Part shown: positions 2,104 to 60,046 of the stretch, piece by piece
How the letters are laid out: every line of letters begins with the position of its first letter
Numbering within the stretch: the stretch's first letter is position 1
Source: Antedon mediterranea
Taxonomy: Eukaryota > Echinodermata > Crinoidea > Comatulida > Antedonidae
Assembly (NCBI RefSeq): GCF_964355755.1
Contig: NC_092670.1
Location: 32,971,795 to 33,035,794, forward strand
Reading direction: 5' to 3'
DNA: 64,000 nucleotides
Notes under the pieces: model-generated
The model's input: the letters and a program-made list of their open reading frames with translations, nothing else
What the model was told of the DNA's origin: nothing
The model's database searches: none
Translations under genes and position numbers: made by a program

Positions 2104-2178
2104 TCAAGTCATTTGCGTTGTCACAGTTGACGTAGTAATTCGGTTTTTCTTAAACCTCTTCTTAAAACATTCGTTTAT
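2104..2178 (-). CDS. Gene A last exon: basic cytoplasmic tail
   Basis: Acceptor AG at 2179-2180, 75 bp, ending TGA at 2104-2106. It encodes a tail beginning INECFKKRFKKN and ending in a Thr/Ser-rich stretch. It joins in frame to the TM7 exon ending LLDNE, giving the NE(V/I)...FKK.F pattern found after TM7 in adhesion GPCRs. Exons of identical length sit at 36066-36140 (gene B) and 58259-58333 (gene C), which is the main support for the 3' end of this gene model. Confidence 0.75.
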   Translation of the reverse strand: MNECFKKRFKKNRITTSTVTTQMT

Positions 2179-2528
2179 CTACGAAACGATAAAATACCAG
2201 TATTATTATAATTGAATTAAATAGCAATCGTACAATCATACAAATACATAATAAAGTCTAAAAGATATATTCTTCGTAAACTTTAATCGGAACATATAAT
2301 GTGGTAATCTACTGTACAAAATAATTGTACGAGATGTGAGAAGGATGCCTGAGTAAAAACTGGTTTTGAGTTATCGTGTCTTTTGTTTTTACCAAAACTA
2401 CATACTCCCAGAATATGAGCCTAAATATAATATAATTTGTCATGCGCCACCTGGTTTAGAATATTTTGGGACACTGGTTTTTGTTGTAATCTTACTGTAG
2501 GCCTAATCAGCAATAACGGTAATAATAC

Positions 2529-4464
2529 CTCGTTATCAAGTAGACCGTAGATGACGAATATAAATATGCCTTGGCATCCGTTCAACACGTTGAATAGGTA
2601 ATCAATAAATGTTGTATCAGAACTGACAGCGAATGGTCCAATGAGCCATGTGGTACCCATTAAAGGTAGAAGCATTGCAGTTCCTTTGGCTGCTTTCCTG
2701 TACATTTTAATAAGACTTGTAATTAATTGAAATTCTAACGTATATCTAACGAACAATATTCTATAAAGTTGATAATTTAAAAGACATTGTAATTTCAAAA
2801 TTATTTCTAACCTCAACTGTTTGAGTTTTGTTTTCTCTCCTGTTGATTTTCCTACCATGTTTCCAGATCTTTTGTAGATTGTCAAGACAACGTAGTTCAA
2901 AATAGCTGTATTAATCTGAAAAAAATAATACACTTGATTTTGAGTTTGAGGTTTGGATCTCATAATAACAGCAACATTAGTGTATAGGCCTATTTGTTTT
3001 TGGTATTGACCACGAACTAATTACGCAGTAATGGTGCGGTGTTTGGTTTATTTCGCATGACCAAAGAAAACAGGTTAAAATCTTATTCGAAAGACAGTAT
3101 GATCTCAACAAATTATAGTTTGTCTCCAGTGATCTTTCTCCCTCGCCATTTATGCATACATACATTTAACTGTCATGTTAATTGGTCTTACCAAAGCAAT
3201 ACATGCTGCGGGTGCTACAAACGTCCATATCATTCCTGTTTCTGGACTGAGCCAACATCTAGAAAAACAATTTAAAAAAAACATAATTAAAATAACACTA
3301 CACTAAGAACTTCAGTGATGCATTGGTCATCACTACCTAATTACTGATATCTGTACCGTAATGTAAACATAAACCATTATATAAAGATACAACTTACAGG
3401 TTATCGACATTAAACTTAGAAGCAAATGATCCAACAGAAATCGCAACGATCACGAAGGAAACTCCATAACAGAATATGAAATAATACCGAAGTAGGTAGA
3501 AGTTTGCGTTACTTGACATAGAAAGCTTAGACTGTAAGTATACTGCTTCTGCGCACATCCAAGTGAATGTATTAAGTGATGTGAAATGAAGAAGAATACT
3601 TATGCATTTACAAACAATCTGAAAAACGTTAATAAAATGAAACATGTTGGTTTAGTTTAAATTAGTTTAATATAAAAATAAGTTTTATTTAAACAAGAAA
3701 TTTTTCTTACAAGAAAGGCTGCTCGACTCATTGACAGTTTTAATTATTGTTTTTCCTTCATTACATTATGCTTTTATTGATATTTTATTTAATAGATTAA
3801 GAAACACTGATTATTATCAATACTTTTTGTAAACATTTGAAATTCTCTATTTGGTTACGTCGTTAGTATTATCCATACTTGTTTGCTTAACAATCAGTAA
3901 ATATCTGAAATGCTCTATATTACGTCGTTAGTTCATGTAATATGCATGGGCCGTTCACGGGGGCTGAAGTGCCTATTATATTATTATCAGCCGATTTTTT
4001 TATAGACTCTCTTCTTCCTTCTTCTGTGCTTTTATGTGTGCCTATACACAGTTCGATTTTACAAATTCCCATTTTTTTTGGGAATAAAAAGTAAAGTAAT
4101 AATTTTGTATAATTTAAACGAATAAAGAAAAAAAAAACAAAAAAAAAACAACTTACCTCATTTTCTGTTTTGTCGATTCCAAATAAGAACAGAGATTGCA
4201 TTATAATCATATTAATCACCAAGTTCTTATGAATTGAATTGCGCACAGATTTCCACAACTCTCTAAGAATTAAATGTCAAATTATTATGTTCGTTTACGA
4301 ATATACTACGTTGTTAAAATATGCCTTACGCATTAAAAATATAATAAAATCGAAACTTACGAAAACGAGAAGTACATGATGAGTGTTATCACCAAAGCAA
4401 TAACTGATAGTTATACACAGACTGTTGACATTAAGCTTAGAGTTTCACTGTTTTCAACAGAAAC
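2529..4464 (-). pseudogene. Gene A seven-transmembrane region (TM1-TM7 exons)
   Basis: Six exons carry the class B2 (adhesion) 7TM bundle. TM2 has RNSIHKNLVIN (family pattern IH.NL); TM3 has LHFTSLNTFTWMC.EAVYL; TM5 begins CWLSPETGMIW; TM6-7 has KGTAMLLPLMGTTWLIGP and VLNGCQGIFIFVIY. The TM1 exon (4361-4464) starts VSVENSETLSLMSTVCV and is then interrupted by TAA at plus-strand 4411-4413; after the stop the frame continues SVIALVITLIMYF, matching gene B. All splice sites remain canonical and the downstream frame is open, so the stop may be recent, or a secreted ectodomain could be made. Readthrough or error cannot be excluded. Confidence 0.75.
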
Positions 4465-4733
4465 CTTTAGGGATAAATATTTTATAATTAATTATGAAAT
4501 TTTGATAAACTACAACATAATAAGATTATTAGATACAAAGATTAGATTAAAGTAAACTTGGCGTATATTTTTGTGTTGTAAGGTTTACTTTCTGCAAAAT
4601 ATAATCTATGCAATCGTATGGTGGTTAAACATTCGTGATACACACTTTTTGGGTTAAATATGATTTGGATGGAAGCACTAGCGAAACACGAAAAAAGTCG
4701 AAACAAATATTTTTCATTATTTTGCTAACTTAC

Positions 4734-5693
4734 ATTGTCTGTTGTAACTTTCATTAACACGCTAAAACTCGTTAGATGTTCAGAATAACACGACACTTGA
4801 TCCAGAGAATACGACGTGGTTACCATGCCAGCATCACTCCAAGTACTGTACAAGAACAATACCAGAAGGCAGCATTGTTGATTCACGATAACAAATATTT
4901 AGTAAAGATAAGAGTATAAACACTGAAGAATAGAACATGTTTATGAGTTCGATTCTAGAAAACGGAAATTATTTCAAGTAGAACACGAAGTAAGACAATG
5001 TCAGGTAACACAAAACTTTGTACGGAATTATACGAGGATATTCTCCATCTTGTGAAAAAGATCCTCTAACCGTAATGCATAGGCATTGCAAAAACTTACC
5101 TTCGTGTTTCGTCCAAGAACACGCAAAACATCTCCCATTTATCCTTGTTAGTCACTGAGGAACTCTAGAAGAAGATTAATTAAACTACTCATTAAAGAAC
5201 TTAGTACATCGTTTGAGAACAGTAGGGGATTACCCCGGTGTACTAGTACACATACAGCCATTGGTCATAACTGGGCCCTCTCTGGAAGACCAGTCTTTGA
5301 CTGAAGAGGTTGCCCAGTATAAATATATATAAGAAATTCAAAGTTGCTGTACTTACAATTCGCTTGGTCATGGTAAATTCTATTTTCGCTTCCAAGGGCA
5401 TTTGGTCATAGAAATCGTAAACGCTACATGAAAATACCATTCCGTTGAAATATCTAAATGCAATGTTTGCTTTAAATCTGATGGCAAGAAATTCAGAAAA
5501 GTAAGATATAGGATTTGTTTTAAAGAGTAAAAAAAGAATTATTCTCATTTAGAAATCATTTTTTTAATCTACATATTTAATAAGACTTTATATAAAGAAA
5601 TAACTTACAAATTAGAAATATCAACACTTTCATTTACAGCTTCATTCTCGCCCATTGTGTTGTTACTGTAAGATGCTATAATTAGCATATCAC
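4734..5693 (-). CDS. Gene A GAIN domain and GPS exons
   Basis: Four exons (5609-5693, 5357-5477, 5100-5164, 4734-4845) encode the end of a GAIN-type autoproteolysis fold. Visible landmarks are RYFNGMVFSC, FCVFLDE, TWSDAG and the cleavage box HLTSFSVLM, where the family is cut between Leu and Thr. Of the four cysteines usual in a GPS, the first (CVF) and third are present, but the second (normally GC) is GM and the fourth is Ser. Gene B shows the same two substitutions. The exon junctions run phase 1, 2, 0, 2, 0, identical to gene B. Confidence 0.75.
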
Positions 5694-6147: not shown

Positions 6148-8560
6148 TAGCAAGTGATGGGTCTAATCAAACCTGTATTTTCAGCTATAATTTTCAGATC
6201 AAAATCCAGCTGATTATCGTCCTGTTCCAGACTGCTATTAACGGATATCTTGCTCTCTCTCACTACTAATCCAACTACAAAAAAAACATAAATATATCAT
6301 CATGTCTTTCTAACAACACTACAAGACACTTCCAAAACCTGATTGAATATTTATTTAGTTTTGATTTGAATATATACTTTTTAGGAAGCTCAAATTGGAA
6401 GCTCAAATAAATAAGAACTTGCCATATGTTTCTTCCTCATAAACTGTCCGCTCCATTGCTTGTAAGTTCGATATTTCGGATAAAACTCCTTGTTCAAACT
6501 CGTGGAATTCAGTTATGAATAATTCCATTGTCTAAAAAAAGAATTAAGTATGTTACAACTTTACAACTAAAACTAAATCTACTAACGGAATTATTCTTAT
6601 TCTCTAACGATCATGCATAGATTGGAATTATTTGTTTAATTGTTACCTATTGTGTTCATAAATACGAACTATTTACGAAAAGTAGTCTAAATTTGTTAAA
6701 AGAGAAAGGAATAAAAATAAAATATCATTAAGTAAAAATAGTATGTTGTAAAAAAATAAACTGTAATCATCCTACCATTTCTGTTTCTGAAGATTCCACA
6801 TCGAAGCAAACAAAAAAACCCAATAATGATAAGCTTATTAAAATTAAAATAATTATATAAAACAGCATAGTTAGTTTATTAACACAGCTAAAAATCTACC
6901 AGGCTGGGAGTAAACAAGGAAAATTCTAAAAACATAGGCTGAGAAAAGCATTTTTTCAGATTGAAATGTGGCTTACAACAGTTAGTAGAACTTTTGTGGG
7001 TTTATGCCTAAGTTTTTGGAATAGTTTTAAAGCTGTTAGATTTAGTAATAAATAACTTATTGTTAAGAATATGAGATTCATCGACGAATCATTGCATCAT
7101 AACAGCTGTGATTTAAGACTTCCTTCTGTTTTTTTTGTAGACCATTACACTCAAGCAACACAAACATCTAATTAAAGATTAAATAACAAAATATATTCGT
7201 TTAGTAACCATATTAAGGTTCATCTGCAAAAAAATTGCAAAGAAGCTGATTTCAACGGATTTGTGCAGGTATGGGTATACAGATATAACCAAAAAAAGTA
7301 AGGAAGAATAGGAGGTGGGGAAACATTTTTTGGGGGTGTTAAAGGTCATTGACCTCATTTTATAATCCTAAAATTGTATCTTCGCAACAAAATATGGTAT
7401 ATGGTTGAGCTTGGTGTCAAAATGCACAAACTTATGCCAGGAATTAAATAAAATTAAATTGGACCCATATGACCATATCTTGACCTTCAAAAATCAGGTC
7501 AAAGGTCAACATACCCATTTTTTGGGTTTAACACATACTTATAATGCACTATCAAGTCAAATATTACATTATAAAGTGCATGTCAACTGATTTGTGTAGT
7601 TATGGGTATACAGATATACCAAAAAAAAGTAAGGAAGGAAAATTATTTTTTTTTGTGTGTTAAAGGTCATTGACCTTTAAAAATACTAAAAATCTTCGCA
7701 ACAAAGTATGATATAAGGTTGATCTTGATGTCTTGGTCTAATCAAACCTGTATTTTCAGCTTGAATCTTCAGATCAAAATTATCGTCATGTTCGAGACTG
7801 CTATTAACGGATATCTCGCTCTCTATCACTACTAATCCAACTACAAAAAAAACATAAATATATCATCATGTATTCTTCTAACTACACTACAAGAGACTTC
7901 CAAAACCTGATTGAATATTTATTTAGTTTTGAATATTCACTGCTAAAGACTCCAGTTTCAAACAGTGGTTTAATTTGACTATATACTTTTTAGGAAGCTT
8001 AAATTGGAAGCTCAAATACATAAGAACTTGCCATATGTTTCTTCCTCATAAACTTTCCGCTCCATTGATTGTATGTTCGATATTTCGGATAAAACTTCTT
8101 GTTCAAACTCATGAAATTCAGTTACGAATAAGTCCATTGTCTAAAATTAAGTAAGCATGCTGTAAATACTAACTAACAAATCAACTTACTAACTAAACTT
8201 TGAATGATCTACCAGGGAAGAATCCGATTGTAATTTAATTTAACTCTCCCCTGGATCTACAAACAGACTTATCCTTATTATATGAAGATCACGCATGCTT
8301 AGATTGGAATTAATTTGTTGTAATTGTTATTGATTATTGTGTTCCTAAACACAAACTATTTATTAAGTAACCTCAATTTGTTAAAAGAGAAAGGAATGAC
8401 ATAAAATAAAATAACATTAGGTAAAAATAGTATGTTGTAAAAAAATAAACTATAATCATCCTACCATTGCTGTTTGAAGAATCCACATCGAAGCAAAAAA
8501 ATAATTATGATAAGCTTATTAAGTAGGTTATACGTTGGTATTTGTATCAAACAGAATAGC
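6148..8560 (-). repeat. Internal duplication of three stalk exons in gene A
   Basis: The segment of about 0.7 kb at 6148-6870 is repeated at about 7735-8555 with clear similarity through introns and exons. Each copy holds a 5 bp microexon (6776-6780, 8465-8469), a 109 bp exon (6423-6531, 8032-8140) and a 102 or 93 bp exon (6173-6274, 7748-7840). The three exons together start and end in phase 1, so both sets can be spliced in series without breaking the frame, or used alternatively. Gene B has a single set. Confidence 0.75.
7255..7740. repeat. Imperfect direct repeat, period about 335 bp, in gene A intron
   Basis: The run containing TATGGGTATACAGATAT, AAAGTAAGGAAG, TTAAAGGTCATTGACCT and CTTCGCAACAAA occurs twice in the same order, near 7268-7395 and 7602-7705. 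It lies between the two copies of the duplicated stalk exons. AGGTCATTGACCT is a near-palindrome within each unit. No coding is seen. Confidence 0.65.
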
Positions 8561-10310: not shown

Positions 10311-10909
10311 GTTCAACGTTTATTGTAAACGTACAACTGTTTGAATTGTTGGATGAGTCTGTAACTGTAAACGTATACACATGTACTCCTAATCCAATAT
10401 TAGATTGGAATGTTGAATTAGGAACTGGTGATACAACAAAGTCGTTTGAGTTGTCATTTGCAGTTATATCAGTGGAGTAGTCAACTGATGTGGAGACTGT
10501 GGTCGTTTGTATTGTAACATTTACAGGACATTCCACTGTAGGGGATTCCGTATCTGTAACAATAACAACATTATGGACATTTTAAAGTGAGCATTGTCAA
10601 ATGCAATTGTTAAACGGAAGTGGTTTTCGTAATAATGTACTATATTTCACAAACCTTCAACATTTAAGGTAAAATTGCAGCTCGCTCTATTGTTATAAGC
10701 ATCTGTAACATTGAACACAAACAGGTGACTTCCAATCGCAAGAACAGAGGGAAATATTTCTATTGGATTTGGGGAGATTTCCAATGGTTGGTTAGAGTTG
10801 TCCGTTGCACTAATATCGGTTGAATAGTCAACGGTGGCCGTGGAACTATTGAAATCAGTGACTACTCTCAAATTGTCAGACGGACAGATAATAATAAGCT
10901 TTTCGATAT
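10311..10909 (-). CDS. Gene A: two HYR (hyalin repeat) domain exons
   Basis: Exons 10655-10909 (255 bp) and 10311-10553 (243 bp) are each symmetrical phase 1-1 units encoding one HYR domain, an immunoglobulin-like extracellular module. Each has the pattern C-P near the start, VDYSTDI followed by A.DNS, then a P.P..F..DIG.H.. type turn and a C-TF.I/LNV end. Gene B has one such exon. The phase-1 symmetry explains how an extra copy could be gained without a frameshift. Upstream is the CTLD, downstream the stalk. Confidence 0.8.
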
Positions 10910-11806: not shown

Positions 11807-11928
11807 TTTTTTCACATATAACTACCACATTTGGATGTGAACACCGTTTATCACTCCAAGTACCACTGGGTTTATGCAGAACAACACAATCTCCGTTATT
11901 GTTATATTAGGTTCACCTTCTTTCCAAT
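11807..11928 (-). pseudogene. Gene A second CTLD exon, frameshifted
   Basis: The minus-strand exon opens in phase with the first CTLD exon as NWKEGEPN, giving the EPN calcium/sugar-binding motif. The rest (GDCVVLHKP, GTWSDKRC, VVICEK), the conserved second half of a C-type lectin fold, is in another frame. The exon is 122 bp where gene B has 132 bp, a difference not divisible by three. Splice sites (AG at 11929-11930, GTAAGT at 11801-11806) look intact. Confidence 0.7.
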
Positions 11929-12770: not shown

Positions 12771-12801
<31 letters not shown>

Positions 12802-15153: not shown

Positions 15154-15417
15154 TTGTAAAGTTTGCAGTCATCTCAGACAGCCACTCAAAAACGCCTTCT
15201 GTGTTTATATCATTGTAGGAAATCCAAGCTTTATTTGAATTGGAATCCTCAGTAAATCGTTTAAGTATCCATTCGTTTTCTTCTGCACTTGAAATTTCAA
15301 CCAAATCACCAGTAAAAGTCTGGCATGTACTCCTTTTAGAACTCCACGTATCAGCTGTGTTCGTGAGCCAGTAACATTTTGAAAATACGGCATTGTAATG
15401 CCATCCTGTCGGACACC
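15154..15417 (-). CDS. Gene A first CTLD exon
   Basis: This 264 bp phase 1-1 exon encodes the first half of a C-type lectin-like fold: CPTGWHYNAVFSKCYWL, TWSSKRSTCQ, GDLVEISSAEENEW and AWISYND, the usual WIG-type core as WIS. The matching exon in gene B is 44144-44398 (255 bp). It begins at GG|TGT after the phase-1 end of the signal-peptide exon. The frame is open. The role is extracellular ligand or sugar binding by family; ligand unknown. Confidence 0.8.
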
Positions 15418-23273: not shown

Positions 23274-23337
23274 CTGCATCACAGATTACTTGATGTGTAA
23301 TAACCAAAATTGACAGTAGTGTACTTCTTGCTTCCAT
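23274..23337 (-). CDS. Gene A first exon: signal peptide
   Basis: ATG at 23337, then MEARSTLLSILVITHQVICD and a phase-1 end at GATGCAG|GTATGA. The hydrophobic core and the CDA end match the other first exons. The 5' flank shares ATAGTTTGATGAAT with the copies at 30125 and 44843. It is the nearest upstream signal exon to the CTLD at 15154-15417, so I assign it to gene A; the link is inferred. Confidence 0.65.
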
Positions 23338-29870: not shown

Positions 29871-30063
29871 TAAATTTATATACAAGAACGTAAAGTAACC
29901 GGCACAAAATGAATTGTAAACCGACTGGTTTAGAGTATATTAGTATGTGTAAACTACGCTAGAAGACATTTCACAAGCAAATCACCCCAACATTATGGAA
30001 AACATAATAACAGATTTAAACTAACAAAATATGGACAGTACAGAAACTCAAATAGAAACTATC
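29871..30063. other. Spacer next to the decayed first exon
   Basis: No feature beyond weak similarity to the first intron of gene A near 23210-23270. Confidence 0.4.
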
Positions 30064-30125
30064 ATCATCACAGATGATGAAATGCGTAATAACCAAAATT
30101 GACAGTAGTGTACGTACGTCTTCAT
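30064..30125 (-). pseudogene. Decayed signal-peptide exon of the receptor family
   Basis: On the minus strand RTLLSILVITHFIICDD is clearly the same signal exon as 23274-23337, but the ATG at 30125 is out of frame with it because of an ACGTACGTAC insertion-like run, and the donor is lost (GATGATAG|TTTC instead of GATGCAG|GTATG). The flanks on both sides (29960-30430) are related to those of gene A. No following exons are recognisable before 23.4 kb. Confidence 0.6.
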
Positions 30126-31028
30126 TTATGCATCAAACTACAGAAATAAAAATAAACGCATTGATGAAATGGCTAATTTTAAATACTATTGAGTAAAATA
30201 TGCAACAAACTATTACACTTGATTGAATATTACTTTGATTTATACCTATTCTAATATAGGTAAAATACCTACCTGAATGGATCACACAAAATGATGAACA
30301 TTAAATACACGCCAATTAATTTGATTGAAAAAGACTAATATTCTCGTACCGTGCAAGAAATAACTTATTGTACAATGCATCTCCACAAGTTACCATGGTT
30401 TTACTTGTCATACGTACATCTTGAATAATGATTTGATGAACAACTATTAAAAATTATATATTTTATATTTCATACAATAAAAAAAAAAATAACAAGGCAA
30501 CCATACACCAACATACATGCATTTTATTTACTGAATACATTAAATACAATATCTCAATTAAGTAGTTATATACAAAATGCCAAATGTGATTAGAAAGCGG
30601 TAGATAATAATAATAAAACATTTACAACATTATTGAAATTCTGTTAAATACAGAAATATAAAACCGTGATTTAGTTATAGATATGAGATTCAGCAAACAT
30701 TGATAAAATACAATGTACAAATTAATAACTTCCGGTAGTAAAACCGTGATAAAATAAGTTTTAAACATTGTGAAATAAATGTCAAGTATAGTTACAACAG
30801 ATACAAACATTATTTAAAAATCGATTGCTGGTTAATTTATTAGAGCATTGCACAACTGTTGAGTAGTTAACAAAACCACTGGTTCTGCCGATCACGAGGG
30901 ATTTTAACACATTTTTTTTGTATTTATTTAATGTCGACATATTGCAAATAAATGGGAATTAATATTCTATATGAAGTTCTAGCAAGACAATCTAACAACA
31001 GCACATTGAGCTTGCCTTGCCAAGATAG
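30126..31028. other. 5' flank of decayed exon and spacer up to gypsy-1
   Basis: Contains the conserved GTTACCATGG block near 30389 and no recognised coding. The sequence from 30430 to the LTR at 31029 is AT-rich with no repeat partner. Confidence 0.4.
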
Positions 31029-36065: not shown

Positions 36066-39000
36066 TCATGTTACTCGCGTGGTCACCGTTGACGTTGCAA
36101 TCTGGTTCCTTTTAAACCTCTTCTTAAAACATTCGTTTGTCTAAAATTCGAGCAAAACATAACAGTTATAGTAGAATTAAATGAATTAAGTATTTTAAGT
36201 TTTTCTTATACCCATTACATGATGTAGGCCTATGTACGTGTGATTTCCGTGTACTAATCTTATCAGCTTGGCCAACAGACAATTCCACCAACCTAGTTGT
36301 CATTTGAACTTATTTTCGGTGGCAATAATGATGATGATGATGATGGTGGTGGCGATTAAGATGGTGGTAATCGTACAAATAGTACTAATATAATGATAAT
36401 ACCAATACCTCGTTATCAAGTACGCAGTAGATGATGAATATAAATATGCCTTGGCATCCGTTCAACACGTTGAATATGTAATCAATACATTTTGTATCAG
36501 AACTGACAGCGAATGGTCCAATGAGCCACGTGGTACCCATTAGAGGTAAAAGCATTGCAGTTCCTTTTGCTGCTTTCCTGTACATTTTGATAAGAATTGT
36601 AATGACAAAATTAAAATGGAAACTGCAACGTTTATACCATATTCTGTAAAAGGTCTTAATTTAAAAATTGTTTTAAGTTTAAAATTAGTTCTAACCTCAG
36701 CTGTTTAAATGTGGTTTTCTCTCTTGTTGATTTTCCTACCATGTTTCCAGATCGTTTGAAGATTGTCAAGACAACGTAGATCAAAATAGCTGTATTAATC
36801 TGAAAAATATCGATATTGCTTTTTTGATTTTGAGTTAGAGCTTTGGATTTCATGACAACAAAATTGGCGCATAGGCAAATTTGTTTTGGTATTGGTCACA
36901 AAAGAATTGCGTAGTTGTGCAGTAACGATGGTTGTTTATTGCGCATGACCAAACGAAACGCCTTCAAATATTTTCTTGAAAGATGGTATGATTGTGTCTT
37001 CATTTATCTATCTTCCTCGCCATTTTGTAAACATATACTACCAAGTGAATTTAGTCTTACCAAAGCAATGCACGCCGCCGGTGCTACAAACGTCCATATC
37101 ATTCCTGTTTCTGCACTAAGCCAACATCTAGAATAACAATTAAGAATTTAAAAAAAACATTGAAATAACATTGGTATTATAATAATTATCGAATTACTTC
37201 TTAGTTACTAATGTAAACAAATAACATTATTAGATAACTTACAGGTTATCGACATTAAACTTAGAAGCACATGATCCAACAGAAATCGATACAATCACAA
37301 AGGAAACTCCATAACAGAATACGAAATAATACCGAAGTAGGTAGAAGTTGGCGTTACTCGACGTAAAAAGCTTAGACTGTAAGTACACTGCTTCTGTGCA
37401 CATCCAAGTGAATGTATTAAGTGATGTAAAATGTAGGAAAATGCTTATACATTTACATAACATCTTTAAAATAAATTTTCAACATAATAAGTAGAATTCA
37501 AAAAAGAATGGAACACATCATAATAGGCCTACTAAAAATAGAATGTTAACTTGATGATTAACTGAAATGAACAAAGGAAATACTAATGGTTACATTATTA
37601 AAACTTACCTCATTTTCTGTTTTGTCGATTCCAAATAAGAACAGAGATTGCATTATAATCATATTAATTACTAAGTTCTTGTGAATTGAATTCCGCACAG
37701 ATTTCCACAATTCACTATGTAAAAATTTAGATTTAAATACATTTTTATATAATATTTACGACTTAACGAGTTGTTATAAGTTTATTTTAACTAACCCCAT
37801 TGACGAAAAAAAAAATACTGAAACTTACGGAAATGAGACGTAAATGATGAGTGTTATCACCAAAGCGATAACTGATAGTGATACACACACTGTTGACATC
37901 ACACTAAGAGGTTTACTGTCTTTAACAGAAACCTGCAGATACGGTACACAATGTGTATATGTGAATTTTTTTTAAAGATCTTTTTGTCATGATTTAAAAG
38001 GTATTTTATTTAAATTATTAATATACTGCAAGTTACAAGTTAAATACCCCAAAAACAACTATCGTATTATAAATGTACTATACTGACAAATTGGTGGTTA
38101 ACATTTTTCGAAGTAAGTCAAAATGACAATGGTGTAGGGTGAACCTTTATTGAGTGGAAACCAAATAAGGGTATTCGGAAAATGACGAATCTCAACAAAT
38201 ATTAGTTTGCTAACTTACATTGTCTGTTGTAACTTTCATTAACACGCTAAAACTCGTTAGATGTTCAGAATAACACAACACTTGATCCTGAGAATACGAC
38301 GTAGTGACCATACCGGCATCACTCCAAGTACTGTACAAGAACAAAAGCAGAAGGCAGCATTGGTGAGTCATGATAAAAATGTATGCAAAGCAGGTAACAA
38401 AAAAGAAGAATAATTTCCAAGTTTTAAATGGTGAAAATTATTACCTGTATAAATCCTGTTGTTGATGTATTGGTGTAACACAAGATAATTCATGTCCATT
38501 CTGAATATATTTTATCGCATTACGGAAGGTTGTTTAACCGTAAAAGATGAACATAATTCTAACTTACCTTCGATTTTCATCGAAGAATACACAAACTGGC
38601 TCCGATTGATCTTCTTTAGTTATTAAGGAACTCTTAAGCAATATAATTAACAACACTATATATTAGTGATTAGTAATTAGTAAAATTTAAATACTAATTT
38701 TTAATTCAGGATTTCATAACAATTATAAACATTATCTACTGCTGGTAATCAGTTAAAGAAGAAGCAATTCAAATTTTCAAATCTTAAATGATACAAAAGT
38801 TGATAGAAATTAATTTAAATATACTTTAATTAAGTATTACTAGATGGTACGCTCGCTTCGCTCGCGTACCATCTAGGTCGTGCCCACAGATGGTTCTCGA
38901 ATACTAATAATGTCAGCGTTAAAAAACTGGCGATTTCAAATGTACGTACCGCAGGACAATAATACATGTCGTTTACAGGAACGAATAAATAGACACTGTG

Positions 39001-42000: not shown

Positions 42001-44843
42001 TGTACGCATAGAGAACAACTAAGCATTTTGTGTTTAGGAACATAATACATAACAATTTGAAAATTAAATTGTTATTTATTATGTTCCTAAACACAAAATA
42101 CCAGTTTCCATATTATTCCATAATGGTGGGAAAAAAGTATGTTATAAAATAAATTAATTAATGATTGAGTGAATCTCACTCTTCGCTTGTTTCAATTGAT
42201 AAAATATTCAGTATCCTACCATTTCTGTTCCAAGAATCCACATTGAAGCAAAAAAAAAATAAAAAAATAAAGCTATAACAAGTTGATTAAAAATTGAAAA
42301 TATGGAGTTAAACGTTGTATAAGGTTATCAAACAAAAATATTAAAAGTTAACAATTAGAAATAATTCAGTGTAGATATTTATACCAAGTGTGAAGCCAAA
42401 ATATAATATAAGTTTATTTACATAATAATGATATATCAATATTTTTGGAAAATGATAAATTTACTAACCTACAACAATTGTAAACGTACACGACGTTATA
42501 TAATTATTATAATGATCATAAATTTCAAAGTGAAAATTATGTTTTCCAATATCAAGATCACAAGGAAATATTTCAAAAGGGTTCGGTATAATTGTAACAA
42601 AGTCAATGAAGGCCTTTTCTACCGTCACTGAATAATTCACATTGACTGATGAAGTAGGTAAATCTGCGCCTACGATCTCATTAGAAGGACACTTCATATC
42701 TGGTGGTTCGATATCTGAAAGAAATTAATGTATCATATTCGGCAAAAAATGATGTATATAATACTGTTTAATCAATGTCATATCGGACTTCAAAAACAGT
42801 TTAAATATTTTACATAGTAAATGAAATTATAATTACATGACAAATACAATCAATTTTGGCTAATTAAAGTTTTTAAATTAATGACATGATTAGTCATGAT
42901 TAGTAAGAGTAATAATTATCGTGACGATAGTAAATATTTATCATGATGTTATTTGATTAGATTTTTCAAAGTATTATGTATTATATAAAGACAGTCGAAA
43001 TGGATGTCCTTGGTTCTAGAATGAAATGTTTGTGTATCTATTTATATTCATTCGTTATCATTCACAGTATAATCTGATTGATGACTTCGTAAAATATATC
43101 GGGGAAAACTATATTCGGAGAGAGAAGGCTCACATCTTTATTCGGTCCATGTTAAAAAAATACAGAGGGCGTTCTACTTAATATCTCGTTTTAAAGATCA
43201 GGTAAGTTGACATGTTAAGTATGTATTCATTCAGAACGATAACTTAAAAAATGTGCACGCTATCATACTAACAAACAACAGACAGACAGACAGGGCTTTT
43301 AGCAACATTATATTTTGCCAAGTATTGTAATATACAATTTGAAGCTGAAATTCTGATAAAGAAATATCAGAAATACTTTAGCCTATGTGTAAATCTACCA
43401 AATGGAATAAATTAATTCTTACGCATTTCACATATAGCTACAAAATGCCTCTTTCGACATGAACCATCAAACCAAGTACCGGTACTGTTTACATAATTAC
43501 CCAGAGCAGCACAATCCTCGTTACTCAAATCTTTGGGTTCATTAACATGCCAATCTAAAGAAATGAAGTAGTATAACTATTAAACAAGACAGGGCCAGTG
43601 TTTTTATTCGGTATTTCTCATGTGTTGTGGTAATAAGGAGCTAAATACATGTTTTAATATCAAGAAACGTACGTAATCTTCCGGTGCCAATAACACTGAA
43701 AAAATGGAATTAACTAATTAAAATAAAAATGAAACACCTAGGTTTTTTTTATCAATTTGTTCTTATATTTTTATTTTTTTATCTTTTTTAACATAGTTAT
43801 TATAGTATCACAATAGAGCATTAGTTTTTCTGTCCTTTTATACACCAATGATAATTAAGTCTCCAGTGTTATATGGGTATTAATTTGGTTTTGTGGAGTG
43901 TGGTATTATCTGTTTAATTTAGTTTACTCTTTATTATTTTAAATGTATATATTTGTGTATAGTTTATTATTGAGTATGCGCCATTACTATGTGTTTCACT
44001 GTTTTGAAAGCGTTTTACGAATATTTTACCATATTTTTATTATTACTGATACTAATACTCTAAAACGAATTTAGACTTATGTCAAATGGTAATAATTATA
44101 CACGGAGATTTCTAAATTTACGAAATAATTAAACCAAGCCTACTTGTATAGTTTGCACTTCTTCCAGACACCCATTGAAACTGGCCTTCTGTATCACTGT
44201 AGCCAATCCAAGCAGCGTAATATATATAGTTTTCAGTAAATCGTTGGAATACCCACGAGTTCTCGTCTTCACTTGAAATTTCAATCAAATCACCATTCAT
44301 TCCTTGGCATATTTCTCTCATAGAATACCAAGTACCAAGTGTGTTTGTAACACAGTAACACTTCGAATATGCTGAGTTGTAATGCCATCTTGGACACCCT
44401 GGAAAATAGTATTAGTGTCTTGTATCATGTTTGTTAACATCATGCTTCCAGTTTTAGAAAAATGGGATCAGTTCCTACTCAAATTATATAAAGATATATT
44501 ATAGTCATGAGACTCGCAGTTTATTGAACATGGAATTAGTTTCTCCTCCTGCAAAAGTAGCGGGTAAAAAGGAAGTAATGAATATTCTAATTTGTAGATC
44601 ATAAAACACAATCCTCGTCTTTAGCTACTCTACTATACTTATAAAATAAACAAAATAAATACAAAGAATATAAAAATGTTACTAGTCAAAAGAAACAAGA
44701 TAAATTATGATATTGAACAATTCCACGTTATGTACTTCCACTTATTATGAAACCAATAAGATACTAAACTCACAGGCATCACAGATGACGTAATGTGTAA
44801 CAAGAATTGACAGTAACGAAACTCCTCTCGTGTTTATATTCAT
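36066..44843 (-). CDS. Gene B: intact CTLD-HYR-GAIN-7TM adhesion GPCR, 18 exons, 716 aa
   Basis: Minus-strand exons: 44774-44843 signal peptide; 44144-44398 and 43423-43554 CTLD; 42469-42714 HYR; 42220-42224 microexon; 41851-41959, 41523-41624, 40965-41049, 40724-40847, 38568-38632 stalk/GAIN; 38219-38330 GPS; 37829-37932 TM1; 37609-37714 TM2; 37243-37463 TM3-4; 37061-37127 and 36696-36799 TM5; 36409-36577 TM6-7; 36066-36140 tail. The sum is 2151 bp, 716 codons plus TGA, with all junction phases matching. By residue: 1-23 signal, 24-152 CTLD (NEPKD, TWFDGSC, FVAICE), 153-234 HYR, GPS cleavage box HLTSFSVLM near 420-428, seven TM about 440-690, tail ECFKKRFKRN. Family role: plasma-membrane receptor self-cleaved at the GPS, signalling through G proteins; a carbohydrate or microbial ligand is possible but inferred. 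A Helitron H2 lies in the intron 38633-40723. Confidence 0.85.
36326..36360. repeat. Short (ATG/GTG)n microsatellite
   Basis: AATGATGATGATGATGATGGTGGTGGCG in the last intron of gene B. Confidence 0.7.
38840..40300 (-). mobile_element. Helitron-like family H2, full-length copy 3
   Basis: This is the most complete copy (1461 bp). On the minus strand it starts A|TCTATATATAAATTTACG at 40300 and ends with a palindrome (38841-38876: ACCATCTAG-type stem around GCGAGCGAAGCGAGC) and CTAG|T at 38840-38843. No open frame of note. It is inserted in the GAIN intron of gene B without disturbing splice sites. Confidence 0.75.
42220..42224 (-). CDS. Gene B 5 bp microexon
   Basis: Sequence AAATG between acceptor GGAACAG and donor GTAGGA. 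The HYR exon ends in phase 1 and the following 109 bp exon must enter in phase 0; only an insert of length 2 modulo 3 restores this, and the 5 bp exon does so, yielding Glu-Met. Equivalent sequences occur in gene A at 6776-6780 (AAATG) and 8465-8469 (CAATG), with conserved flanks. A slightly longer exon using another acceptor is possible in gene A only. Confidence 0.6.
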
Positions 44844-49571: not shown

Positions 49572-49574
49572 GAC

Positions 49575-51797: not shown

Positions 51798-52549
51798 TTT
51801 ATCATTTTATTAAGTGCCTGTTCCATTATAATCATTTCAATAATGCCTGCAGCATCATCTTCTTTTACATTAGCACATTTCATCCAACATTTTAAATAAT
51901 GGGAGAGCTCATTCAGCCATTCCCTGATGGACATATCTTTAACTCTGTTTGAATTTCTAAATTTAAATCTGTAGGTCTCTGCGGACACATAATACTTTTC
52001 TAAGATTGCCTTCTTTAAGGTATCATAATCTACACATTCTTTTACGGTTAAGGATGCATATGCTGTCCTAGCTTTACCAGACAGTTCAGATGCTAACCTA
52101 GCGGACCACGTATTCTTATCCCAACCTGTGGCTTCTGCCAAGTGTTCAAATGTTCTAAAATATATATCAATATCATCTGATTCCTTCAAAGTAGGAACCT
52201 TTACCTTCATTTCATCTACTATATTCCTAGCATTACTGTAGCTAGACCTATTTTCTAATTCCATCATTTTCACTCTTTCTTGTGATTCAATTTTTCTTTG
52301 CTCTATATCTGCTTCTAATCTTAATTGGTATTCTTACTTTTTGTTTTCGGCCTCGAACTTCATTCGAAAATATTCGAGCATCATATCTTTAGGCATACCG
52401 CCGGGTATTTCGGGCAAATCAATATCCCTAGCCATTTTATCATATATTTCATTGACTTGGTCAACCTCTTCTTGGTCAACCATATCTTCCCTAGTATCTT
52501 TGTCTGACATAGTCTTATCTATATTTTTACCCGATCTTAAAGTTGTCAT
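51782..52549 (-). pseudogene. gypsy-2 gag, N-terminal and capsid parts
   Basis: Two frames: 52334-52549 starts MTTLRSGKNIDKTMSDKD with an acidic N-terminus and ends at TAA; 51782-52273 has DIDIYFRTFEHLAEATGW, LSGKARTAYASL and MSIREWLNEL, the usual gypsy capsid pattern. A stop and then a frameshift (overlap at 51782-51797) separate them from each other and from pol. Confidence 0.75.
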
Positions 52550-53018: not shown

Positions 53019-53154
53019 CATATAAAGTATAAAATATATACAAATACTGATTGTTTATGAGTGTAATGGTACAAATAATGGCATGAGGTGAATGATGAAA
53101 GTTTATATATCAACGAGCCGAGTTGATATATTGAACAATATTGTAATGTGGTGG

Positions 53155-54289: not shown

Positions 54290-54720
54290 CTTTCGCCTCT
54301 TGTAATTTACATTATCATGCAAATGTAAGATATTTATTTGTCGTGGTTAACATGTTTTGAATCATAGAGCAATGGGTTTAAGTCATGGGTCTGTCACGAT
54401 ATCAGAAGTTATCTTACGACTAGTTAAATTTGAGTATGTGAAATGTTGGATATGTGTACAACAACCCGATACTTCCGGGTAATAAATATAGTACAAAAAA
54501 TACTGCTATACTAAAGTAGAAATATTTTCAAACTCACCACCATCACAAATGACGTAGTATGTACCAACCAAAATTGACAGTAAAATACGTTCTTTTGGTA
54601 TCATTTTGACACCAAACTACTAACATCACTGTAAATACAAACAAAAATATCACTGAACTTATTCCACTGATTGAAATGTTGATGTGCACAAAACAACCAA
54701 TACGAGCATAAACTAAAGAA
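54290..54720. repeat. Segmental duplicate of 367-800 with an orphan signal exon
   Basis: Starts TTCTTTCGCCTCTTGTAATTTACATTATCATG as at 377 and follows it through the first exon and its 5' flank. The duplication resumes at 58023 (matching 1860 onwards), the 800-1860 part being replaced here by a LINE and a Helitron end. Confidence 0.75.
54538..54604 (-). CDS. Orphan signal-peptide exon of receptor family
   Basis: MIPKERILLSILVG and VICDGG with a GTGAGT donor; 22 codons plus one base, near-identical to 612-678. No CTLD, HYR or 7TM exon lies between it and the gypsy-2/Helitron block downstream on the minus strand, so it is probably a non-functional by-product of the segmental duplication, although intact itself. 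Confidence 0.6.
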
Positions 54721-54729
54721 CCTATTAGA

Positions 54730-57588
54730 AATGATAGAAACCGCCATGGCGGCGGATGTGCTTTTTACATATCTAATTCTATACACTTAGTTAATTCCCA
54801 TATTTGTAATGATCTCTTGTCAGATGTGATAAGGTGTGAAATACAAGTTTCAAACTGGACGATTTTGACTTATGTATGTTATAGGCCACCACAAAGTGAT
54901 GTTCAATCTGATCAGGATCTACTTGACTATTTTCAAAACAGTACTAATAACTTTGTTTTGTCTCGACACAGCTTAACTTTAATGATGGGCGATATGAATG
55001 CTCAAAATAACAACTGGTACAATGATGGAAACACAAATAGATTTGGAAAATTATTTTACGAATTTTTACAACAAAACGGTTTAACTCAACACATCAATAT
55101 GCCAACACGTTGTATAAAAGACCAACGGTCTTGTATTGACCATATAGTTACTAGTCAAAATGTATATATTAATGATTTTGGTGCATTGTGCCCACTTTTA
55201 AATTGTGATCACAGTCCAGTATATGCAAATATTGATATTCGTATCACACGGGACAAGCCATACAATCGTAAAATATATCTTTTTGAAAAAACTGATTTTA
55301 ATTTATATCGTAATGCTCTTAATTCTGTAAATTGGGAAGAAGTTTATTCATCTTCAAAGGTTGAAGATGTTTGTCATAATTGGATTGACTTATTTAATAA
55401 TTGTGTTGATAACTATATTATATCTAAAATTATAACTGTGCGTCCTAATGAAAAGCCTTGGATTAATGCGCATATTAGAACTCTTATTCGCAAAAGAAAT
55501 CGCGCCCATTCCACTCGAAATAACTCAAATTCGCATATGCAACGTTTTAAGAAAATTCGCGCAAAAGTTGTTAAAGCAATAAGAAAAGCTAAACAAACTT
55601 TTTTGGATAAACAATTTGATTTATTAATGAATAAAAACTGTGATTCAAAAACTTGGTGGTCTACCATAAATTCAGTTTGTAATTCCAAACAATATTATAA
55701 GATTCCTCCAATCAAATTAAACGATGATGTCCTAACTTTAAATAGTGAGAAAGTTAAAGCGTTTAACAATTATTTTAAATCTCAATCGTTTATTCCTAAT
55801 CATGATGATTTTCCTTCGGACTTCACATATAGAACTGCATCGAGACTCTCAACTCTCAAATTATCTGTTGATGAGATCATGAAATTATTAACTATGCTGG
55901 ATAAAAACAAGGCGATGGGACCTGATGAAATTCACAGTATCATACTAATAGAATCTGCTGAAATTATTGCACCACATTTGACAAAGCTTTATAACTTCTG
56001 CATAAGCCAAGGATATTTTCCTGTGGAATGGAAAAAATCAAATGTCATTCCTCTGCATAAAAAAGGCAATAAATCCCTTATTGAGAACTACCGCCCTATA
56101 TCCATACTTTCTAACTTTGCAAAAATTTTTGAGCGTGCAGTTTTTGATATAGTATATAAATACTTTGTGGATGATAAACTTCTTACTCAATTCCAATCTG
56201 GTTTTACACCAGGTGACTCAACAACGTATCAACTTCTTTATCTTATAGATACATTTAATAGAGCTTTAGATTTAAGGAAAGAAGTAATCTCGGTATTTTT
56301 GGATATTTCCAAAGCCTTCGATAAAGTTTGGCATAATGGGATTATATACAAATTAAATCAATATGGAATTAATGGCACTCTTCTAAAATGGTTCCAAAGT
56401 TACTTAAACTCACGTGAGCAACGTGTTATTATTGAAGGAACTACCAGTCCTTGGGTGACCATTACAGCAGGAGTACCCCAAGGATCTGTTTTGGGTCCAT
56501 TTTTATTTATTGTATTCATAAATGATATGGTTGATAATATCAAATCTAATATTAGTTTATATGCAGATGATACTTCGTTATATGATATTTGTACAGATCG
56601 TAATATTTCAGAACAAAAATTAAATGGTGATCTTAATGTCATTTATAATTGGGCAAAAAAATGGAAAGTAACATTCAATGCTAACAAAACGAAAGCTATA
56701 CTGTTTACACGTAAACATTTAGATAACTATGTTAATTTAAATTTCAATAATGTAAATCTACAATTTGTAAATGATCATAGGCATCTTGGTGTAATGCTTA
56801 ATGCAAAACTCAAGTGGGATTCCCATATCCAATCTGTAATTAACAAAGCGTCTTTATCTTTAAATATGCTACGTCGTGTCAAACATATTCTACCTCGACA
56901 GGCTCTCTGTCACATTTACATATCACACGTTAGACCATTAATGGAATATGCAGCTCCTGTTTGGTGTAATATCCCAGTTAAATTAAGTGATGAACTAGAA
57001 AATATCCAGATTTCTGCAGGTAGAATATGTACTGGTGCGTGGAAACATACAAGTCATAATGCATTAAGACAAGAATTAGGCTGGTTATCATTGGAAAAAC
57101 GTAGACAATTTCTTAACCTAATACTGTTTTTTAAAATTATTCATAAGTTAACACCAGTGTATCTTTACTCCTTATTTAATTTTTCTGACAATATTGAAGT
57201 TTATAACTTGCGTAACATCCGAAATATAATAATTCCATTTTGTAAGACCACATCATATCGTTTATCTTTTGTCCCATCTATTATAACACATTGGAATGAG
57301 TTAAATAATGAAATAAAAAATTCCTCATTTCTTGTTGAGTTTAAAAAATTGCTACTGAAATCCAATTTGTTTGAAACAAAAAAACGTTCTTATTATGATA
57401 CAGGTGATAAGAAGATTACCAAATTCACACTAGAATCCGACTTGGTTTCAGCTGTCTCAATTCGCATTTATTCTTACATGGACTTCGGGACAATCCAAAT
57501 TGTACTTGTGGCTTTAATGTTGAGAATCCGCTTAATTTCTTATGTTACTGCCCTAATTATAATACACAAAGAGATATTCTACTTGTAA
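54730..57588 (+). CDS. LINE ORF2: partial endonuclease plus reverse transcriptase
   Basis: Open from about 54730 without an initiator (the annotated-looking start at 54817 is TTG inside the endonuclease). The endonuclease part shows RHGGGCAFYISNS, TYVCYRPPQ, GDMNAQNNNW and CIDHIVTS; the Asp/His finish is HSPVYANIDI. The RT has KAMGPDEIHS, NYRPISILSNFAKI, SGFTPGDSTTYQL, VFLDISKAFDKVWH, GVPQGSVLGPFLF and the catalytic LYADDTSLY near 56560. The C-terminal region extends to 57588. No disabling mutation is seen in the retained part, but the N-terminal catalytic third of the endonuclease is missing. It resembles the CR1/Jockey group in style. Confidence 0.8.
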   Translation, partial: NDRNRHGGGCAFYISNSIHLVNSHICNDLLSDVIRCEIQVSNWTILTYVCYRPPQSDVQSDQDLLDYFQNSTNNFVLSRHSLTLMMGDMNAQNNNWYNDGNTNRFGKLFYEFLQQNGLTQHINMPTRCIKDQRSCIDHIVTSQNVYINDFGALCPLLNCDHSPVYANIDIRITRDKPYNRKIYLFEKTDFNLYRNALNSVNWEEVYSSSKVEDVCHNWIDLFNNCVDNYIISKIITVRPNEKPWINAHIRTLIRKRNRAHSTRNNSNSHMQRFKKIRAKVVKAIRKAKQTFLDKQFDLLMNKNCDSKTWWSTINSVCNSKQYYKIPPIKLNDDVLTLNSEKVKAFNNYFKSQSFIPNHDDFPSDFTYRTASRLSTLKLSVDEIMKLLTMLDKNKAMGPDEIHSIILIESAEIIAPHLTKLYNFCISQGYFPVEWKKSNVIPLHKKGNKSLIENYRPISILSNFAKIFERAVFDIVYKYFVDDKLLTQFQSGFTPGDSTTYQLLYLIDTFNRALDLRKEVISVFLDISKAFDKVWHNGIIYKLNQYGINGTLLKWFQSYLNSREQRVIIEGTTSPWVTITAGVPQGSVLGPFLFIVFINDMVDNIKSNISLYADDTSLYDICTDRNISEQKLNGDLNVIYNWAKKWKVTFNANKTKAILFTRKHLDNYVNLNFNNVNLQFVNDHRHLGVMLNAKLKWDSHIQSVINKASLSLNMLRRVKHILPRQALCHIYISHVRPLMEYAAPVWCNIPVKLSDELENIQISAGRICTGAWKHTSHNALRQELGWLSLEKRRQFLNLILFFKIIHKLTPVYLYSLFNFSDNIEVYNLRNIRNIIIPFCKTTSYRLSFVPSIITHWNELNNEIKNSSFLVEFKKLLLKSNLFETKKRSYYDTGDKKITKFTLESDLVSAVSIRIYSYMDFGTIQIVLVALMLRIRLISYVTALIIIHKEIFYL

Positions 57589-57802: not shown

Positions 57803-57846
57803 GAGGCGCCTTGAAGCTAAGATGGTTCCATCTTGTAAGGCGCCTC
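57803..57846 (+). other. 3' UTR hairpin of the LINE
   Basis: GAGGCGCCTT (57803-57812) pairs perfectly with AAGGCGCCTC (57837-57846), and inside it AAGATGG (57819-57825) pairs with CCATCTT (57828-57834). It sits 15 bases before AATAAA and the tail, where many LINE-encoded RTs recognise their RNA. Confidence 0.75.
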
Positions 57847-57890
57847 TGTGTAATATACTGAATAAAAAAAAAAAAAAAAAAAAAAAAAAA

Positions 57891-58022
57891 CGACAATGTA
57901 TTAGTCCTGCGGTACGTGCATTTGAAATCGCCATATTTTTTACCCTGAAATTACTGTGTATTCGAGAACCATCTGTGGGCACGACCTAGATGGTACGCGA
58001 GCGAAGCGAGCGTACCATCTAG
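57891..58022 (+). mobile_element. Helitron H2 3'-end fragment
   Basis: Contains TCCTGCGGTACGTGCATTTG, TCGAGAACCATCTGTGGGCACGACCTAG and the complete terminal palindrome with CTAG at 58019-58022 followed by T. It is truncated on its 5' side by the LINE poly(A) tail. Confidence 0.7.
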
Positions 58023-60046
58023 TAAATACAATTTTACATAAGTGCATTTATTTATACAAATATAATCTGATGTGTGAAATGCAGAGTATAAATACATTAT
58101 AATTCTAGAGCCACGAAATATCGAAAACGAAACTGAAATATCTTTCAGTATTGCATCAATGAACTATAATAACATGCGTATGTGAATATTATCATTTCAA
58201 TCGACTTAAGCCTTGGTGACATAATGTTTGCATTAGCGTGAAGAAAATAACTTTAAATTCAAGTCATTTGCGTTGTCACAGTCGACGTAGAAATTCGGTT
58301 CTTCTTAAACCTCTTCTTAAAACATTCGTTTATCTACGAAACGATAAAATACCAGTATTATTATAATTGAATTAAATAGCAATCGTACAATCGTTTTCTT
58401 ATACCAAATACATAATAAAAGTCTAAAAGATTTAATCTTCGTAAACTTGAATCGGAACATTATCATAGTGAGGTAATCTACTGTACGAATAATTGTACGA
58501 GATGTGAGAAGGATGCCTGAGTAAAAACTGGTTTTGAGTTATCATGTCTTTTTTTTAGCAAAACTACCTACTCCCAAAATATGATCCTAAATATACTACA
58601 ATTTGTCATGCGCCACCTGGTTTAGAATATTTTGGTTTCTGTTGTAATCTTACTGTAGGCTTAAACAGCAAAAATGGTAATAATACCTCGTTATCAAGTA
58701 GACAGTAGATGACGAATATAAATAAGCCTTGGCATCCGTTCAACACGTTGAATATGTAATCAACAAATGTTGTGTCAGAACTGACAGCGAATGGTCCAAT
58801 GAGCCACGTGGTACCCATTAGAGGTAGAAGCATTGCAGTTCCTTTGGTTGCTTTCCTGTACATTTTAATAAGACTTGTAATTAATTGAAATTCTAACGTA
58901 TATCTAACGAACAATATTCTATAAAGTTGATTAATGTAATGGACATTGTAATTTTAAAATTATTTCTAACCTCAACTGTTTAAATGTAGTTTTCTCTCCT
59001 GTTGATTTTCCTACCATGTTTCCAGATCTTTTGTAGATTGTCAAGACAACGTAGATCAAAATAGCTGTATTAATCTAAAAAAATGTACAGTTGATTTTTA
59101 ATTTGAGGTTGGGATTTCATAATAACAGCAACATTAGTGTATAGGCCTATTTGTTTTTGGTATTGACCACGAAATAATTACGCAGTAATGGTGCGGTCTT
59201 TGGTTTATTTCGCATGACCAAAGAAAACAGGTTAAAATCTTATTCGAAAGACGGTATCATCTCAACAAATTATATTTTGTCTCCAGTGATCTTTCTCCCT
59301 CGCCATTTATGTATACATACTTAACTGTCATGTTAATTGGTCTTACCAAAGCAATACATGCTGCGGGTGCTACAAACGTCCATATCATGCCTGTTTCTGG
59401 ACTGAGCCAACATCTAGAATAACAATTTCAAAAAGCACAATTGAAATAACATTAAATAGAAGAACTTCAGTGATGCATTGGCTACTACCTATTATTATCT
59501 TATTACTGAACCGTAATGTGAACATAAACCATTATAAAAAAAAAAAGAAAAACAAAGAAAACTTACAGGCTATCGACATTAAACTTAGAAGCAAATGCAC
59601 CAACAGAAATCGCAACGATCACAAAGGAAACTCCATAACAGATTATGAAATAATACCGTAGTAGGTAAAAGTTGGCGTTACTTGACATAGAAAGCTTAGA
59701 CTGTAAGTATACTGCTTCTGCGCACATCCAAGTAAATGTATTAAGTGATGTGAAATGTAGGAAAATGCTTATGCATTTACAAACAATCTAAAAAACGTTA
59801 TTATAATGAAACACGTTGGCTTAGTTTAATAAATGTAAAGTGTTATTTAAACAAGAAATATTTCTTACAAGAAACGCCGCTCGACTCATTGACAATTTGA
59901 ATTATTATTTTTTCTTAATTAAATTATGCTTTTATTGATATTTCAATTAATAAATTAAAAAACAGTGATTATTATCAATACTTGTTTGCTTAACAATCTG
60001 TAAACATCTGAAATGCTCTATTTGGTTACGTTGTTTGTTCATGTAA
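58023..60046. repeat. Segmental duplicate of 1860-3950
   Basis: Colinear with gene A 3' region, very similar in exons and introns, until the match breaks at about 60040 where the Harbinger element begins. Confidence 0.75.
58259..59787 (-). pseudogene. Gene C: last five exons of an adhesion GPCR
   Basis: Minus-strand exons 59567-59787 (TM3-4, 221 bp), 59347-59413 (67 bp), 58971-59074 (104 bp), 58687-58855 (TM6-7, 169 bp) and 58259-58333 (tail, TGA) have exactly the lengths of genes A and B, open frames and canonical splice sites. TM6-7 reads KGTAMLLPLMGTTW and VLNGCQGLFIFVIY. No TM2, GPS or ectodomain exon is found between 59788 and the window end, which is occupied by a PIF/Harbinger transposon. 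Either the transposon sits in the TM2-TM3 intron of a complete gene continuing to the right, or this is a truncated duplicate of gene A; I cannot decide. Confidence 0.65.

Follow-up and report, generated by a model that had tools for sequence, protein, structure and literature searches.

What do the recurring exons of a 64,000-nucleotide stretch of the crinoid Antedon mediterranea encode, and what would such genes be for? The stretch, hereafter the window, is C1:32971795-33035794 (contig NC_092670.1, here C1) in a genome of 354 Mb in 18 contigs, and has a GC content of 33%. An earlier note on this DNA had proposed a tandem array of adhesion G-protein-coupled receptors (GPCRs) carrying C-type lectin domains (CTLDs) and HYR (hyalin repeat) domains. 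Our analysis indicates that the window probably covers the central part of a tandem series of class-B2 adhesion GPCRs with lectin heads and HYR stalks, which would cleave themselves at the GPS, signal through a tethered agonist and turn over by recombination. The array is larger than had been noted and is partly decayed.

Frame-by-frame comparison of the window with itself revealed blocks of the seven-transmembrane (7TM) region at 2.4-3.7, 36.3-37.5 and 58.6-59.9 kb, and all receptor exons in the window lie on the minus strand. The peptide of the 221-bp exon matches 31 places in the genome. Seven of these matches, at 81-100% identity, fall within C1:32.949-33.186 Mb on the minus strand; the remainder do not exceed 53% identity, apart from a single match that reaches 59% across 59 of 74 residues. 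The array contains at least seven copies of the 7TM exons (genes Z, A, B, C, D, F, and G) within approximately 240 kb on a single strand, and this number and closeness, together with Pfam E-values reaching 6e-47, place the recurrence beyond chance.

We built exon chains by reading the sequence and searching with exon peptides, using 134 kb of contiguous sequence and two further stretches; numbers above 64,000 continue the numbering of the window beyond its end (window-extended). Gene Z (C1:32948.3-32972.5 kb; 716 residues), gene B (window 36066-44843; 716 residues), and gene C (window-extended 58259-78563; 1,052 residues, five HYR exons) are each open from ATG to stop. Genes A, B, and C had been put forward as full series: B is the sole complete open copy inside the window, but C contributes only its five 3′ exons, with those from TM2 (transmembrane helix 2) to the signal exon at window-extended 65798-78563, and A (window 2104-23337) is broken. 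Its second CTLD exon measures 122 nt (123 in Z, 132 in B, and 126 in C), a TAA interrupts TM1, and GAIN exons 1 and 2 are doubled. Gene D has a 1-nt frameshift in TM2, and three HYR exons of gene F are altered: HYR1 is damaged at its end, HYR3 is frameshifted, and HYR5 carries an insertion. The 7TM and GAIN exons of gene G were located and left unspliced. Three of the seven copies are accordingly open (Z, B, and C), three are disrupted (A, D, and F), and G has no spliced model.

The exon lengths of 221, 67, 104, 169, and 75 bp reported earlier are exact in all five copies with splice sites set (Z, A, B, C, and F), where the model of F is automatic and was not remade; the automatic models of Z, A, and F misplaced the end of the signal exon and missed the GC donor. 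The last exon encodes 24 residues and directly follows the TM6-7 exon. Introns have AG acceptors and GT donors throughout, save for one GC donor common to the four modelled copies (Z, A, B, and C), in which the intron after GAIN exon 1 is predicted from the genomic sequence to begin G|GCAAGT. Since the last HYR exon is in phase 1 and GAIN exon 1 in phase 0, a further exon is needed between them, and a 5-nt microexon, (A/C)AATG, is predicted there. Its motif, TTGCTTC...ACAG|(A/C)AATG|GTAGG, aligns in seven of seven stretches from six genes (Z, A twice, B, C, D, and F), more closely than the rest of the intron, and the phases from last HYR through microexon to GAIN are consistent in all four modelled copies. 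These two putative features go beyond the earlier note; with both included, its length of 716 residues for gene B was reproduced.

Contrary to the earlier claim, the sameness of the copies did not extend upstream of GAIN: there is one HYR exon in Z, two in A, one in B, and five in C. In Z, B, and C, all 13 CTLD and HYR exons begin in phase 1 and have a length that is a multiple of three, and the seven HYR exons among them are all 1-1, the symmetry that domain shuffling needs.

The proposed Pfam check of gene B returned all four expected domains: 7tm_2 (6.1e-47, positions 3-250 of 250), Lectin_C (1.2e-15), GPS (1.1e-8), and HYR (7.2e-5). Gene C matched 7tm_2 (7.5e-47), Lectin_C (2e-16), GPS, and HYR (4.3e-25); three of its HYR stretches pass singly, and five HYR exons are recognised by homology. 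The first 469 residues of gene Z matched Lectin_C (3.1e-20) and GPS, with HYR above the cut-off. The GPS reads CYSEHLTSFSVLM in all seven array copies, and HLTSF is retained in these seven and in both copies of a second cluster described below. The predicted cleavage motif HL|T, followed by the predicted tethered-agonist sequence TSFSVLM, lies just before TM1. The best PDB sequence match was ADGRD1 (8x9s, 9.7e-47), aligned from the GPS to just beyond TM7, and the next was ADGRL3 (8.2e-42), a relation to ADGRD and ADGRL that is a ranking of best matches only. The 7tm_2 match, with GPS, HL|T, and putative tethered agonist ahead of TM1, assigns the copies to class B2 as far as sequence can. Together with the splice phases and the three open spliced models, these matches support the identity of the array as lectin-HYR adhesion GPCRs.

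A C-type lectin and a GPS occur together in PKD1 as well, which would speak for polycystin-1-like receptors in place of adhesion GPCRs. The C-terminus of 11 transmembrane helices sought after the GPS was not found there; instead, a 7tm_2-type 7TM region precedes the short last exon. With a 7tm_2 match across virtually the whole model and ADGRD1 as the best PDB match, we consider a polycystin-1-like identity to have a negligible probability.

The CTLDs had their best PDB sequence matches in mannose-receptor-family domains, those of the mannose receptor and DEC-205 among them; these are type I receptors that carry numerous CTLDs but lack a 7TM region. The calcium/sugar motif of mannose-type C-type lectins, EPN with WND, is complete in Z, whereas C and F have EPN with WHD, A has EPN with WSD, and B has EPK with WFD.

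The lectin-HYR and GAIN-7TM exons might instead belong to separate transcription units that alternate as neighbours, the heads being secreted lectins. Such heads do occur with no 7TM of this subfamily listed nearby. At C1:31.767-31.771 and 31.792-31.801 Mb, 1.2 Mb from the array and on the opposite strand, lie a CTLD with four HYR and a CTLD with three HYR in the stretch read, and among the matches listed neither has a 7TM of this subfamily. Their HYR are 82% identical to the first HYR of gene C and 90% to its fourth (31.767 Mb only), and 74% and 89% identical to the first and second HYR of gene A. CTLD or CTLD-HYR genes at 32.879-32.918 Mb likewise lack a 3′ subfamily 7TM among the matches listed. 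However, the stretches searched contained no signal exon of the array type between HYR and GAIN, and the phases and microexon described above would join the two halves in every modelled copy. Genome-wide, 15 of 139 GPS matches are preceded 5′ by a same-strand HYR no more than 45 kb away; the 3′ direction and the opposite strand each gave none (matches listed). A CTLD stands 5′ under the same terms in 12 of 139, against three in the 3′ direction and four on the opposite strand. These counts are lower bounds, the CTLD tally having used 150 of 154 matches and the HYR tally the 150 best, outside which the HYR of the array itself fall. We regard separate units as quite improbable.

The same combination recurs elsewhere on C1, so that it is unusual, as had been stated, but not unique to this locus. 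A second cluster (C1:34.97-35.02 Mb) repeats this exon series twice, with the second copy incomplete in the stretch read; their 7TM exons are 49-90% identical, and CTLD and HYR exons, some weak, lie 5′. At C1:39.57-39.60 and 39.64-39.67 Mb, two units are ordered CTLD, many HYR, GPS, and 7tm_2 among the matches listed.

The heads of the array have diverged far more than the tails. In nine of the ten pairs of Z, A, B, C, and F, protein identity is 46-66% in the CTLD and 88-96% in GPS+7TM; the exception is C-F, with 84% and 97%. Synonymous divergence (dS) in CTLD, GAIN, and GPS+7TM, respectively, is 0.87, 0.17, and 0.12 for Z-A; 0.57, 0.14, and 0.13 for Z-C; and 0.31, 0.10, and 0.12 for A-C, so that CTLD dS reaches at most roughly seven times the 7TM value. 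Because GPS+7TM dS is 0.07-0.27 among the array copies, these copies are young.

The protein tree of the 7TM did not separate Z, A, B, C, and F. With D and G as the root, DNA trees grouped Z with A, C, and F (support 89/95 for 7TM and 96/95 for GAIN). In the CTLD tree, which carries a long-branch warning, Z instead joined heads at 33.119 and 33.214 Mb (100/99), and C and F joined the heads at 31.767 and 31.793 Mb (99/99). Head and tail trees would, in part, point to different histories. The second GAIN exon 1 of gene A equals that of Z in protein (37 of 37 residues) and sits inside a 1.6-kb segment with 93% identity to Z; the doubled GAIN exons resemble the scar expected from unequal exchange. 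That heads and tails of single genes appear to differ in history is new and is the part worth following.

How such receptors would work can be proposed because self-cleavage in the GAIN/GPS region and a tethered agonist are described for adhesion GPCRs in the available text of PMC12716839, from which we carry the mechanism over. If transcribed and spliced as modelled, an intact product (B, C, or Z) would comprise a signal peptide, one C-type lectin, a stalk of one to five HYR (Ig-fold), a GAIN-like/GPS region, seven helices, and a short tail. The lectin head would bind an extracellular or cell-surface ligand, which may be a glycan in copies that retain the calcium motif. The GAIN region would cleave itself at HL|T, and removal of or pulling on the head would expose TSFSVLM to the 7TM, which would then signal via G proteins. 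Turnover of the array by unequal recombination would leave conserved tails with diverged heads, and some copies broken.

Several results weigh against this reading. The disrupting changes in A, D, and F are among them, and assembly error is possible there. The Pfam GAIN model was unmatched in the gene models; counted from GAIN exon 1, the GAIN-like region has approximately 190 residues before the cleavage site, and recognition is limited to the GPS. Loss of the canonical sugar motif in B and its partial retention in A, C, and F make sugar binding doubtful in several copies. Both CTLD and HYR lie 5′ in only three of 139 GPS matches among those listed, and the 12 GPS with a 5′ CTLD are not all independent, since a single CTLD match serves more than one of them. 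At fourfold sites, the contrast between CTLD and GPS+7TM reached p < 0.05 in six of the ten pairs of Z, A, B, C, and F, four of them involving Z, with p values uncorrected for multiple tests and few CTLD sites (15-40). It was absent in A-B (p = 0.74) and B-F (p = 0.78), so the contrast is not uniform across pairs. Finally, no pair gave a CTLD ratio of nonsynonymous to synonymous divergence (dN/dS) above 1, the sign of positive selection (0.42-0.90).

The last result bears on a more conservative account, in which the genes are a conserved developmental or cell-adhesion receptor with a lectin stalk, multiplied by neutral tandem duplication and devoid of a recognition role. Adhesion GPCR functions elsewhere are mostly adhesive or developmental, dN/dS stays below 1 in every segment and pair (0.16-0.31 in GPS+7TM), and copies have also been lost (A, D, and F). 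Against it stand CTLDs that diverge far beyond GPS+7TM, a number of HYR that ranges from one to five, and the many clusters of CTLD, HYR, and GPS across the genome. This account is possible, though rather doubtful.

A recognition role, also suggested in the earlier note, is plausible from diversification of the heads over a conserved tail. The fast-diverging lectin, the conserved 7TM, the broken copies, and the variable HYR number fit it, but the CTLD dN/dS values do not strengthen it. In its fullest form, the locus would be a diversified recognition system whose copies recombine, swapping heads on a shared self-cleaving 7TM tail with one another and with a store of lectin-HYR genes that have no tail. 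The signalling part would stay constant while the heads could be replaced, for use in immunity, allorecognition, or gamete recognition; we hold this stronger version to be unlikely. In the available text of PMC6208332, an adhesion GPCR gene is upregulated after microbial stimuli in one of two sponges and GPCR genes are downregulated in the other, a comparison that makes an immune role thinkable at most.

The features of the window are collected in Table 1. Of three extra first exons claimed in the earlier note, those at 678 and 54604 stood up; the third, at about 30.1 kb, lacks both ATG and donor. A second orphan signal exon of the gene-Z type lies at C1:33164833. This exon and that at 54604 may belong to distant heads, serve as alternative first exons, or be what is left of heads since lost.

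Table 1. Receptor exons and signal-exon remnants in the window (window positions).
Feature	Position	Strand	Remark
Signal-peptide exon, most likely of gene Z	612..678	-	other Z exons precede window position 1
Gene A tail exon, 75 bp, with stop	2104..2178	-	
Gene A TM6-7 exon, 169 bp	2529..2697	-	
Gene A TM5b exon, 104 bp	2812..2915	-	
Gene A TM5a exon, 67 bp	3192..3258	-	
Gene A TM3-4 exon, 221 bp	3398..3618	-	
Gene A TM2 exon, 106 bp	4157..4262	-	
Gene A TM1 exon, 104 bp	4361..4464	-	in-frame TAA 4411-4413
Gene A GPS exon b	4734..4845	-	CYSEHLTSFSVLM
Gene A GPS exon a, 65 bp	5100..5164	-	
Gene A GAIN exon 4	5357..5477	-	
Gene A GAIN exon 3	5609..5693	-	
Gene A GAIN exons 1-2, second copy	6173..6531	-	own microexon 6776-6780
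Gene A GAIN exon 2	7748..7840	-	
Gene A GAIN exon 1	8032..8140	-	ends at conserved GC donor
Gene A 5-nt microexon	8465..8469	-	
Gene A HYR 2	10311..10553	-	
Gene A HYR 1	10655..10909	-	
Gene A CTLD exon 2, 122 nt	11807..11928	-	1-nt frameshift near 11891
Gene A CTLD exon 1	15154..15417	-	
Gene A signal-peptide exon	23274..23337	-	
Decayed signal-exon remnant	30019..30132	-	without ATG, without GT donor
Gene B tail exon, 75 bp, with stop	36066..36140	-	
Gene B TM3-7 exons	36409-36577, 36696-36799, 37061-37127, 37243-37463	-	Pfam 7tm_2
Gene B TM2 exon	37609-37714	-	
Gene B TM1 exon	37829-37932	-	
Gene B GPS exons	38219-38330, 38568-38632	-	Pfam GPS
Gene B GAIN exons	40724-40847, 40965-41049, 41523-41624, 41851-41959	-	
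Gene B 5-nt microexon	42220..42224	-	
Gene B HYR exon	42469..42714	-	Pfam
Gene B CTLD exons	43423-43554, 44144-44398	-	Pfam
Gene B signal-peptide exon	44774..44843	-	
Orphan signal exon, gene-Z type	54538..54604	-	67 nt, then GTGAGT
Gene C TM3-7 and tail exons	58259-58333, 58687-58855, 58971-59074, 59347-59413, 59567-59787	-	

Repeats and mobile elements are interspersed with these genes. The repeats at 17.4-18.8, 24.2-26.9, 38.9-40.3, and 46.2-47.2 kb were considered as recurring exons; they occur in both orientations and were taken for interspersed repeats. A repeat shared by 0-0.4, 45.9-46.2, and 8.7-10 kb was rejected as a signal exon. Long terminal repeat (LTR) retrotransposon stretches at 31911-35102 (+) and 48268-52333 (-) are ordered gag-like, integrase, and reverse transcriptase (RT)/RNase H, with integrase before RT as in Gmr1-like elements. 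The gag-like frame of the first has a Pfam SCAN domain and its integrase was identified by eye; the integrase of the second was identified by Pfam. RTs of the non-LTR type lie at 28084-29730 (+; RVT_1, 4e-33) and 54712-57588 (+; 4.5e-33). The latter frame, of 958 residues, joins RT to an endonuclease domain, and this element is probably recent, since a copy approximately 73 kb away matches 1.1 kb of it at 98.8% identity. An open DDE_Tnp_4 transposase frame, which we take to be of the PIF/Harbinger type, lies inside an intron of gene C (62191-63363, +).

Beyond the window, CTLD exons, some with HYR, flank the array at C1:32.879-32.918 and 33.207-33.231 Mb, and C1:31.767-31.801 Mb contains at least four CTLD matches on one strand. 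The repertoires of these domains in the genome are very large, with at least 154 CTLD, at least 150 HYR (1,415 candidates), at least 139 GPS, and at least 160 7tm_2 matches. Among those listed are HYR-GPS-7TM clusters without CTLD at C1:6.55-7.3 Mb; a GPS array with 11 matches lies at C7:2.285-2.321 Mb.

Among known class-B2 receptors, ADGRD1 and ADGRL resemble the array in having a GPS followed by a 7TM region, HL|T, and a tethered-agonist motif. The head of ADGRD1 is pentraxin-type and that of ADGRL olfactomedin/rhamnose-lectin, whereas the array has a C-type lectin and HYR head, a short pre-GPS region that the Pfam GAIN model does not match, and a tail that is very short. Amphioxus adhesion GPCRs reportedly carry C-type lectin and other heads with lineage-specific head shuffling; the array would share their lectin and add HYR, tandem arrangement, and apparent mosaicism of head and tail. 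Choanoflagellate and filasterean adhesion GPCRs similarly join GAIN-7TM to varied extracellular domains, which the available text of PMC12716839 attributes to domain shuffling. The terms "HYR domain" and "hyalin repeat" are each indexed once for that paper but are absent from its searchable main text. The lineage-specific, unclassified adhesion GPCRs of Ciona offer a further likeness; in the portion available of PMC2396169, 21 of the 24 unclassified models have a GPS only and the other three LRR or EGF, none having CTLD or HYR. We found no description of a C-type lectin with HYR on an adhesion GPCR in the available texts of the PMC literature, a scope outside which most subscription journals lie, and the available part of a 2026 review of adhesion GPCRs mentions neither HYR nor hyalin.

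The array may matter for two reasons. The heads of adhesion GPCRs are known to have been shuffled over long evolution; here, single young gene copies would expose that shuffling, with the head and the tail of one gene differing in age. Moreover, the array would provide a natural test of lectin recognition wired to a tethered-agonist receptor and, with it, of whether invertebrates may use GPCRs as a diversified set of receptors for non-self or gametes.

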